This document shows positions 18,159 to 20,219 of a DNA stretch of 64,000 nt, piece by piece (the first letter of the stretch is position 1; each line of letters starts with the position of its first letter). A program made the translations under genes and the position numbers. The stretch is from Heminiphilus faecis. Its GTDB lineage: Bacteria; Bacteroidota; Bacteroidia; Bacteroidales; Muribaculaceae. The notes under the pieces were generated by a model that was not told the origin of the DNA, ran no database searches, and saw nothing but the letters and a program-made list of their open reading frames with translations. Location: assembly GCF_008728965.1 (NCBI RefSeq), contig NZ_VSMC01000008.1, positions 58,788 to 122,787 on the forward strand, read 5' to 3'.

Positions 18159-18243
18159 AATGTTTAAGGTTAATATTATAATTCGTAACTATTGTTTCCG
18201 GCAAAGTTAACGAAAATAATCTTTCTCCGACACCTTTGCCAAA

Positions 18244-19398
18244 TTAATTTAATTTCCTCATCACGACAATATACTCGTTATTCATAGTATCCACTTTTTT
18301 ACCCGCTATATTGGTCGGGCTCGTTTTGGACGGCATACGCTTATTGGGAATACTCCGCACCACAGTCGTAACATGCTCGAAACCGCACTGTTCAAACATT
18401 TCCGCCGTGAAATAATCAAGCGGTATCTGAACTCCTTTCACGTTGCGGTTGCCAACCACATAGCACACCATGCCGCCTGTACGCACTGTATCGGCGACAT
18501 TTATTATCGATGCCTTGTAATCGTTTAGAAACGATACAACCTCACAATAACGCCGGCAGTCGATATCTTTTATCTGCTGAAGCTCGGAACTGATAGTCTT
18601 GGTATCAAGCTCACTGACGTTTTTCCCTCCGCCCATGAGCAATGTATCCAGATTTCTGGCATGCTCGAAAGAAAACCATTCATTGGACCATCTTGAAAAC
18701 TGGCCGTAGGCAACCGTAGTGCGGCTATCGCCATAGGGCGGAGATGTAAGCACTATATCCACGCTCTCTTTGGCCACGGCATCATCCGGGATTGGAAGAG
18801 TGCTGTCAAAGCCATATATTCTAACATCATCGTTGATTACGGCTTTTTTGTATTCGACAAGACCGATGATATTACGCCTTACTTTCTCCTCAAACATTTT
18901 GAATACGTCAGGATTATAAGTCGCAATACGTTTTTTATCCATACGGAAGCGCTTGAACTCGCCGTTGCGTGTATATGACGCCTCTCGCACTACTTCCGAT
19001 AAAGCCAGATTAAAAAAATCAATATTATCCGTGCTGTTATCACTAATCAACTGCGACAGATATGAAAGCCGCAGCAGCACATCATAGGAATACCAGAACT
19101 CTCGATTGGATATCCGGCCAAAATCACGCTCTCTAACCGCTTCATCTGAATAAAACAACAAACCGTTTTGTATATTCCGAAACTCACGCTCTATTGCCAT
19201 TGCATCATATCTCGTCGTTTTCACCTTTGATATGAATCGGGCAAGCGGATTAAGATCGGTCCCTACTGAACTCATTCCGCATAACGAGGCCTCCACAAGA
19301 GAGGTGCCGCTGCCCATATAAGGGTCAAGTAGCATCTCGCATCTGCCTTCTGGTCTGAATTCTCTTAATATCCGGCGCGCCACCTGAGGAATCATCAT
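18244..19398 (-). CDS. DNA methyltransferase (probable N4-cytosine/N6-adenine), apparently N-truncated
   Basis: A 384-residue AdoMet-dependent DNA methyltransferase. Motif I is DPYMGSGT (residues 25-32) and the catalytic motif IV is TSPPYGDS (SPPY at 219-222). It is the likely protective partner of the MvaI-like endonuclease on the other strand. The only usual start codons are the two ATGs at 19398 and 19395, yet the same frame stays open upstream and reads THCYHNYPA directly before them, matching a segment conserved in related enzymes (H.YPAKMIPQ). No ATG, GTG or TTG exists between there and a stop at 19510-19512. The 5' end therefore seems to be missing, or an unusual start is used. Confidence 0.78.
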   Translation of the reverse strand: MMIPQVARRILREFRPEGRCEMLLDPYMGSGTSLVEASLCGMSSVGTDLNPLARFISKVKTTRYDAMAIEREFRNIQNGLLFYSDEAVRERDFGRISNREFWYSYDVLLRLSYLSQLISDNSTDNIDFFNLALSEVVREASYTRNGEFKRFRMDKKRIATYNPDVFKMFEEKVRRNIIGLVEYKKAVINDDVRIYGFDSTLPIPDDAVAKESVDIVLTSPPYGDSRTTVAYGQFSRWSNEWFSFEHARNLDTLLMGGGKNVSELDTKTISSELQQIKDIDCRRYCEVVSFLNDYKASIINVADTVRTGGMVCYVVGNRNVKGVQIPLDYFTAEMFEQCGFEHVTTVVRSIPNKRMPSKTSPTNIAGKKVDTMNNEYIVVMRKLN

Positions 19399-20093
19399 TG
19401 CCGGATAATTATGATAGCAATGAGTATATTCTTTTGTGTCAGCGTCTTGAGGATTACATAGGAGTAGTCGAAAACAATATCGACGAACCGGATTTATTCG
19501 GATACGAAATTAAAGCTCACCGCAATTCGGTAGGGTCTTATATAACCCTGTTTACTAAAAGCCCTGACTTTCCGAAAGGAGCCAACAGTATACTTAAGGA
19601 CCGCTACGGAGTGCCGTATGATGACATTCCGGAATTAAAGAAGCTTCACACATCGATGTTTGCCGACAGGGGCAACACATTCAACAACCGCCTTTCCTTC
19701 CGGCTGATAAATGACCGGGAAAACAAAGTCCTGAAGATTGGCATATTTGACCTTGGCACCGGCCGGCTGATTGATAGCTCCACAGGATATACTTACAATT
19801 GCCTCAACAAAATATTACATAAAAAACTCATTGATCTTTTTTACGTAAGCGCGGAACGTAAATATGTTGACGATAAAGAGTTTTTTCATTTCAACCAAGC
19901 TACCATTTATTCTAAACCGTCGCTTGAACGCTTTCTCTCTCTTGTAGACAAAGGACTCATCATGTATGACATACGCATCGGCAGCTATAAGTCAGGGAAA
20001 AGCATGGGAAAAGCCCATGACCATGGTAGCGGGTTCCGTATACTGGAAGGAAACCTTCGGTTGCTGTTTGACGAGAAAGAAAATGTGCAATAA
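19398..20093 (+). CDS. MvaI/BcnI-family type II restriction endonuclease, apparently N-truncated
   Basis: A 231-residue protein from the TTG at 19398; no better start exists. It closely follows MvaI from memory of that family: catalytic D-x4-E-x-K (Asp32, Glu37, Lys39 in EPDLFGYEIKAHR), TLFTKSPDFPKGANSIL, and near the C-terminus DIRIGSYKSGKSMGKAHDHG. MvaI-type enzymes cut CCWGG or CCSGG as monomers. About 30 residues that precede this region in MvaI are absent, and the first ten codons here are antisense to the methyltransferase frame. The catalytic core is intact, so activity cannot be excluded. Confidence 0.8.
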   Translation: MPDNYDSNEYILLCQRLEDYIGVVENNIDEPDLFGYEIKAHRNSVGSYITLFTKSPDFPKGANSILKDRYGVPYDDIPELKKLHTSMFADRGNTFNNRLSFRLINDRENKVLKIGIFDLGTGRLIDSSTGYTYNCLNKILHKKLIDLFYVSAERKYVDDKEFFHFNQATIYSKPSLERFLSLVDKGLIMYDIRIGSYKSGKSMGKAHDHGSGFRILEGNLRLLFDEKENVQ

Positions 20094-20135
20094 ATTGATC
20101 AGCACGGAGCGTGTAAACGATTTTCCATATAAAAA

Positions 20136-20159
20136 GGGTGTTGTCTCACGACGACACCC
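20136..20159 (-). terminator. Terminator of the SPOR-lipoprotein operon
   Basis: Read on the minus strand, GGGTGTCGTC and GACAACACCC form a 10-bp stem (one G-T pair) followed by TTTTT. It lies 115 nt beyond the SPOR gene stop, between it and the endonuclease gene end. Confidence 0.7.
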
Positions 20160-20172
20160 CCTATAATCTACA

Positions 20173-20219
20173 ATCTATATTTGAATACTTCCTCATGACG
20201 GGAGTATTCAAATATAGAT
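20173..20219. repeat. Long imperfect palindrome (about 20-bp arms)
   Basis: ATCTATATTTGAATACTTCC and its near-complement flank a 7-nt loop (TCATGAC). It lies between convergent genes in the 180-nt gap 20094-20273, next to a separate terminator hairpin. No T run follows, so it may be an extragenic palindrome or RNA-stabilising structure. Confidence 0.8.

Follow-up and report, generated by a model that had tools for sequence, protein, structure and literature searches.

The window analysed here, a stretch of 64,000 nucleotides from Heminiphilus faecis, carries an MvaI-like restriction-modification (RM) system that appears to have lost its control region. From comparison with related sequences, we conclude with a probability of about 0.8 that a single deletion of ~0.52–0.57 kb removed a likely C (controller) gene, the predicted promoters and both 5′ ends, most likely silencing the system in a genome that is, as far as sampled, nearly free of CCWGG. 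The best reading of the record would be that a CCWGG system, through long residence, cleared the genome of its target sites and then died by one recent deletion. This goes beyond the preliminary description of the locus in placing a likely C gene in the deleted segment, in taking the CCWGG content as a record of past activity and in considering the event recent.

Type II RM systems are considered difficult to shed: once the methyltransferase is missing, the genome lies open to whatever endonuclease is left. How lineages escape from them has mostly been deduced from sites that remain rare when the genes have disappeared. For the present locus, the lesion, intact relatives and the site record can all be read. 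The relatives form a graded set, with observed/expected CCWGG ratios of 0.00–0.44 in genomes with the system and 0.31–1.18 in genomes without it. Whether site purging precedes and permits RM loss thereby becomes directly testable.

Two shortened genes at a head-to-head junction

The methyltransferase (M) and the endonuclease (R) lie head to head within a small island, with the following features:

18223..20132, approximate extent: inserted RM island of ~1.9 kb, holding only M and R and absent from the congener locus L043
18244..19398, minus strand: 5′-shortened open reading frame (ORF) of an MvaI-type DNA methyltransferase (M), 384 aa, ATG start
19398..19448, plus strand: hybrid 5′ end of the endonuclease ORF, antisense through M, with TTG at 19398 and 19434
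19399..19446, minus strand: remainder of the M frame, DADTKEYTHCYHNYPA, conserved and without a start codon
19447..19448: putative deletion junction, with a 2-bp TT overlap inferred from codon constraints; intact divergent relatives have 519–566 bp here (15/15)
19449..20093, plus strand: native part of the MvaI/BcnI-family endonuclease (R), corresponding to residues 36–249 of the protein relative P0001, with D/E/K aligned with MvaI
20133..20179: terminator-like hairpin (by eye, not folded) at the right edge of the island, common to L043 and 90% identical there

As the preliminary description had stated, M (minus strand) and R (plus strand) share their first base, 19398. It had also described a conserved but start-less M frame, and we indeed find QDADTKEYTHCYHNYPA before the M ATGs with no ATG, GTG, TTG or CTG up to the stop at 19510–19512; the only near-start codons upstream of the ATGs are ATC (19503) and ATA (19497). 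M thus lacks ~14 N-terminal residues, start codon included. The ORF list gives R as 19398–20093 on the plus strand, 231 aa from a TTG start. The account of R needs some correction: the description was right that R has no ATG start but overlooked a second in-frame TTG at 19434, and the antisense hybrid that it put at ten codons spans 17 (19398–19448). Likewise, the N-terminus of R is lost, but the loss amounts to 35 residues rather than about 30, with 14 native residues still preceding the catalytic Asp; that Asp aligns with the catalytic Asp of MvaI, and the native sequence of R starts at the Glu of 'KTFED'. At the junction itself, M sequence can be traced to ~19448 and R sequence starts at 19447–19449.

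Both catalytic cores are intact, in agreement with the earlier observation. The D....EIK of R aligns with MvaI, D/E/K being presumably the catalytic residues of the family, and M has DPYMGSGTS and TSPPY, which we take to be its core motifs. R matches PF15515 (MvaI_BcnI) over the catalytic core at 176.8 bits against a cut-off of 25, and the GxGKTFE-type N-terminal motif of that family is absent. M matches the Pfam model N6_N4_Mtase, and adding the start-less upstream frame stretches the match from profile position 170 to 160. Among solved structures, the best match of the M relative P0122 had an E of 0.041. R resembles R.MvaI (PDB 2oa9/2oaa) in Pfam family, in the aligned core with D/E/K and in the predicted target CCWGG. 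Compared with the MvaI system, the window has an R without its N-terminal 35 residues and an M without its start, and expression is probably abolished.

Protein relatives show what has been lost. Among the best 120 of 907 R matches, the GxGKTFE-type region is kept in 117, and among the best 120 of 6,569 M matches the N-terminal YPA stretch is likewise kept in 117. Relatives of M in the latter set measure 411–458 aa in 117/120 cases and 383–386 aa in three. P0122 (413 aa, 85% identical to the window M) aligns from its residue 12, and P0001 (249 aa, 97% identical to the window R) from its residue 33.

The retained bodies of M and R are without sign of decay. We counted departures from near-invariant columns after removing near-identical and shortened proteins, which left 116 R relatives (P0001, P0090, P0106 and P0108 excluded) and 117 M relatives (P0121, P0224 and P0237 excluded). 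R has nine departures, all at or before the junction; the GxGKTFE columns are 97–100% conserved in the 116 relatives. The M body has three, within the range of 0–6 in its 117 relatives. P0001 keeps its N-terminus and differs from the window R at 3 of the 214 retained residues. The deletion therefore looks recent, given the undecayed bodies, the existence of this near-identical R with a full N-terminus and the fact that CCWGG sites have not regrown (see below).

A second record of the shortened M may exist. P0121 differs from the window M at 1/383 residues and has the same Met start; this one-residue difference and a longest contig of 3,083 bp suggest that it comes from a separate assembly. P0121 fits the same deletion allele and hints that the allele is perhaps not unique to the window's assembly, but its start alone is no proof, since clusters P0224 and P0237 start at that Met too.

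R was found in 1/14 genus genomes, the window's own, and in 16/297 family genomes including it, nine of these having only distant members. In L043, the pyrK-like and SPOR-like lipoprotein genes (names from reading translations) lie ~295 bp apart without the island; this empty site rests on one genome, as the pyrK-like gene was unseen in the other 10 congener loci, where ~1.5 kb or less was available on that side. The hairpin at 20133–20179 is flanked by T-runs on both sides in L043 but by a single one in the window, where it may now be a one-way terminator. Searches of the genome with full-length M and R found no second copy (one weak match, E 0.157). We therefore discarded the idea that the locus is duplicated or that a 5′ piece has moved elsewhere (inversion, shufflon), as only the window locus was found beyond this match and a weak one for the small gene described below (E 0.696). 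A viral origin was also rejected, no R relative being confirmed in viral contigs.

The segment between M and R in intact relatives

The preliminary description proposed that a deletion had fused the two 5′ ends and removed a shared promoter region, and that alignment to MvaI-like homologues should reveal the missing DNA. The alignments support the deletion: the missing N-termini are visible, and two codons that lie 2 bp apart in the window are 519–566 bp apart in 15/15 intact divergent relatives (52–67% identical; L029 and L038, with another gene order, were left out). Loci with the same overlapping 5′ ends, which would have spoken for a functional arrangement, were sought, and the overlap was found in 0/15 divergent relatives. 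Between the two options offered, a dying locus is thus better than rare starts with overlapping divergent transcripts. The size of the deletion and its microhomology are read from relatives of 52–67% identity, because a search of the other 13 genomes of the genus for an intact conspecific locus found none at the DNA level; for P0001 and P0121, only the proteins are known.

The proposed reading was incomplete, since the deleted segment likely also held a whole small regulator gene. In intact divergent loci, the spacer contains a gene of ~92–99 codons that runs in the direction of R and overlaps its start. It was found in 15/15 loci: we read it in 14 (12 plus L028 and L027), and the fifteenth, on a Parabacteroides distasonis plasmid, is annotated as helix-turn-helix. 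The products align with 14 invariant columns among 11 copies. All six that were scanned matched helix-turn-helix Pfam models, five of them above the curated cut-off, and a PDB search with the product gave 19 weak matches (best E 0.022) to other small helix-turn-helix regulators, none named as an RM controller. From its position and fold class, on which the label 'C protein' is based, the small gene is likely the C gene of the RM system. It is absent from its place upstream of and overlapping R in the window, in contrast to the candidates in 15/15 intact divergent relatives, and the rest of the window's genome holds no good homologue (best E 0.696).

Predicted control elements lie upstream of the putative C gene. 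TAnnTTTG, the −7 consensus of Bacteroides (PMC7366714), occurs within 150 bp upstream of C on the C strand in 11/15 loci and on the M strand in 15/15, against a shuffled expectation of 0.11 per strand. The M-strand box lies 68–115 bp from C in 12/15 loci; in L002, L017 and L021 it is found only within 17 bp of C and is less convincing. We regard these boxes as predicted divergent promoters for M and for the C/R side. Inverted repeats of the form CTCn7-9GAG, for example CTCTCAAATTGAGAG, precede C in 13/15 relatives. The window junction has no TAnnTTTG, and none was found on the minus strand over 19381–19800 (weak evidence); the sole CTCn7GAG match in the junction scan (19291) sits inside the M gene.

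The intact relatives thus resemble C-controlled Type II systems such as PvuII and Csp231I (PMC3850674, PMC4824078) in that a small helix-turn-helix gene precedes R in the same direction and overlaps it, with repeats in 13/15 loci. Compared with these systems, the window would have lost the C-like gene together with its repeats and promoter boxes in a single step.

The CCWGG site record

MvaI recognises CCWGG, and BcnI recognises CCSGG. P0001 scores 155.8 bits against R.MvaI and 40.8 bits against R.BcnI, and we predict CCWGG as the target of the window system. In the window, CCWGG occurs 0 times against 56.8 expected under a maximal-order Markov model (63.3 if both words are pooled), the lowest of 93 palindromic sites whose expectation reaches 10 or more. 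Each genome was represented by stretches rather than in full; in the 262 kb sampled from the window's genome there are 3 sites against 197.8 expected, a ratio of 0.02 (455.1 expected by base composition alone). CCSGG is normal in the same sample (418 against 440.3, ratio 0.95), and a BcnI-type CCSGG target was rejected for this reason. Of the 3 residual sites, one falls within an integrase-like ORF, another within a leuC-like one, and the third precedes a pnp-like ORF (names from translations). The one in the integrase-like ORF (L063:18600, contig C34 of the window's genome, G000) is possibly in DNA that arrived after the system died.

Compared with matched controls, CCWGG is strongly under-represented (3 against 197.8; 29/29 system-free genomes at 0.31 or above). 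System-free here means no endonuclease match at E 1e-5 (family search) or 0.001 (genus search); the 29 genomes, each with an expectation of at least 5, range from 0.31 to 1.18. Part of the deficit is background, as most system-free genomes are slightly below 1; 20 of them pooled give 0.85. Among ten relatives with an intact system, the strongest avoidance is 0.00 (G239, G073, G195), 0.01 (G785), 0.03 (G014) and 0.05 (G142), and 4/10 are moderate at 0.21 (G618), 0.33 (G784), 0.35 (G027) and 0.44 (G560), a range that overlaps two system-free genomes (0.31 and 0.36, 20 kb each). The six lowest span two genera (g7 and g14) and one Bacteroides sp. record, four of them belonging to g7, a genus that also includes a system-free genome at 0.72. 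Counted apart from the 29 are four genomes whose sole family member is a distant one (0.68–1.05) and G734, which has no more than a piece of M where a contig ends (1 against 21.8, ratio 0.05); G004 (0 against 1.3) was excluded for an expectation below 5. Two short system-bearing loci are not clearly low (L021, 3 against 4.1; L022, 2 against 6.2), short loci being noisy.

The fate of single sites can be followed in DNA aligned with four congeners. The window's genome keeps 0/45 congener CCWGG sites, against 61/102 for CCSGG, 13/33 for GGWCC, 22/96 for TCWGG and 21/90 for CCWGA, so that retention is also low for the one-base neighbours TCWGG and CCWGA. Sites that face a gap in the alignment (1 CCWGG, 2 CCSGG and a few of the other words) were left out of these counts, and the 45 are not all independent, since four congeners are compared with one genome. 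Of these losses, 24 are single-base and 21 several-base differences; the single-base ones comprise 10 C>T or G>A and 14 other changes and hit all five positions. Deamination as the only cause was rejected on this mixed spectrum. Together, the 45 lost sites, the mixed substitutions and the kept CCSGG argue for CCWGG as the target and favour selection against it over an explanation by deamination alone.

Other words also deviate. TCWGG/CCWGA stand above expectation (ratios of 1.17–1.41) in seven strongly CCWGG-poor genomes, the window's included, which may trace a path of site loss or be an arithmetic effect. CTAG is almost absent from most sampled genomes (in the window, 1 against an expectation of 76.6), and many have little GATC, irrespective of the system.

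Order of events, rival explanations and known systems

We propose the following course. The island would have been acquired, and the system would have been active over a long residence, killing or taxing cells with under-methylated sites, so that CCWGG was replaced through many substitutions. One deletion across the control region would then have shut down both genes at once, so that neither M nor R was transcribed or translated any longer. With ~35 CCWGG per genome (extrapolated from the sample) instead of ~2,300, loss of the protective methyltransferase was probably less dangerous. The purge most likely preceded the deletion, as CCWGG is still as rare as in those intact relatives that are purged most. 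That the purge made the deletion survivable is only weakly indicated, because ~35 sites per genome may still allow lethal cutting. More generally, and tentatively, we suggest as possible rather than probable that RM addiction dissolves itself in this clade: a CCWGG system purges its sites to nearly zero, the host then drops M and R in one small deletion, and the window would be seen just after that step.

Could part of the system be alive? A solitary M might be translated from the ATG at 19398 or 19395 off another promoter, with R alone dead. The M frame is open and undecayed, it retains its ATG, P0121 (1/383 differing), P0224 and P0237 start at the same Met, and expression from an unrecognised promoter is conceivable. 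Nonetheless, a start at that Met forgoes the YPA stretch kept in 117/120 (best 120 of 6,569), the start-less upstream frame extends the N6_N4_Mtase match (170 to 160), no TAnnTTTG was found on the minus strand over 19381–19800 (weak evidence), and the terminator-like hairpin (by eye) stands between M and the next upstream gene on that strand. We therefore consider a solitary M unlikely. A fully living system, with both enzymes made from rare starts and overlapping divergent transcripts as the preliminary description had allowed, could account for two open frames and for CCWGG still being nearly absent, as ongoing restriction predicts. It is very improbable in view of an overlap seen in 0/15 divergent relatives, an R without the GxGKTFE columns (97–100% conserved in 116 relatives) and the absence from the window of the small regulator gene and of the promoter boxes and operators predicted in relatives. 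Equally hard to credit is a junction created by assembly or binning in a strain with an intact locus. The genome is in 91 contigs, but a split locus should leave 5′ pieces, and searches of the contigs gave no further piece of M, R or the small gene beyond the weak matches at E 0.157 and 0.696; P0121, inferred to come from a separate assembly, is moreover the same short methyltransferase.

The site record might instead have nothing to do with the locus, reflecting another lineage-specific CCWGG enzyme or deamination of methylated cytosines. The genome does encode one C5 methyltransferase, 10/24 single-base differences are C>T or G>A, TCWGG/CCWGA are somewhat enriched (perhaps because the lack of CCWGG shifts the expectation arithmetically), and four of the six strongly avoiding relatives are in one genus. 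Near-total CCWGG loss, however, is seen in six relatives with an intact system and in 0/29 system-free genomes, the g7 genome at 0.72 included, and the remaining 14/24 single differences are other changes, with all five positions affected. An unrelated loss is thus quite unlikely. An EcoRII-C search gave no match in the window's genome, nor in any control genome, and so says little; a further system specific for CCWGG may exist. The C5-cytosine methyltransferase (668 aa, with a long C-terminal extension) lies at G000:C34:64757-65740 (L051), and its 4-kb stretch has two other ORFs of at least 80 aa that are, by eye, not endonuclease-like.

The proposed course draws on what is described for other systems. 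Rusinov et al. 2015 (PMC4687349) report a correlation between the long residence of orthodox Type II systems and the avoidance of their sites, which can persist when the genes have been lost. The window's genome resembles such traces of lost RM systems in strongly avoiding the site of a system that is no longer intact; in contrast to the traces described there, the dead genes remain here, the disabling lesion is readable and avoidance is near total in the sample (0.02). Loss of RM genes dilutes the methyltransferase and leaves unmethylated sites to the remaining endonuclease (PMC3874152). A limited survey of the literature on RM loss, C proteins, the MvaI structure and site avoidance brought up nothing on such a deletion or on this clade.

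Joins at the border of C and R, as in the C-REase fusion CR.NsoJS138I (PMC3850674), occur in the MvaI-like family too. Among 151 endonuclease clusters, P0090, P0108, P0241 and P0242 have a C-like start, MKNEYQN, directly followed by the catalytic core, and P0252 has a C-like start joined to R at another point; the C-like starts in the five are MKNEYQN / MKSEYQNYIINKI. Compared with CR.NsoJS138I, which is reported to be active both as C and as R, the family joins keep ~9–13 C residues and the window fuses none. With the window and two fusion types with different join points, the small gene has probably been lost by deletion at least three times in the family, at different breakpoints; the fusions are known from proteins alone, and chimeric assemblies are possible. 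A related M-R pair in tandem is found on the Candidatus Azobacteroides plasmid pCFPG1 (L038), where R is annotated in two pieces and is probably decayed.
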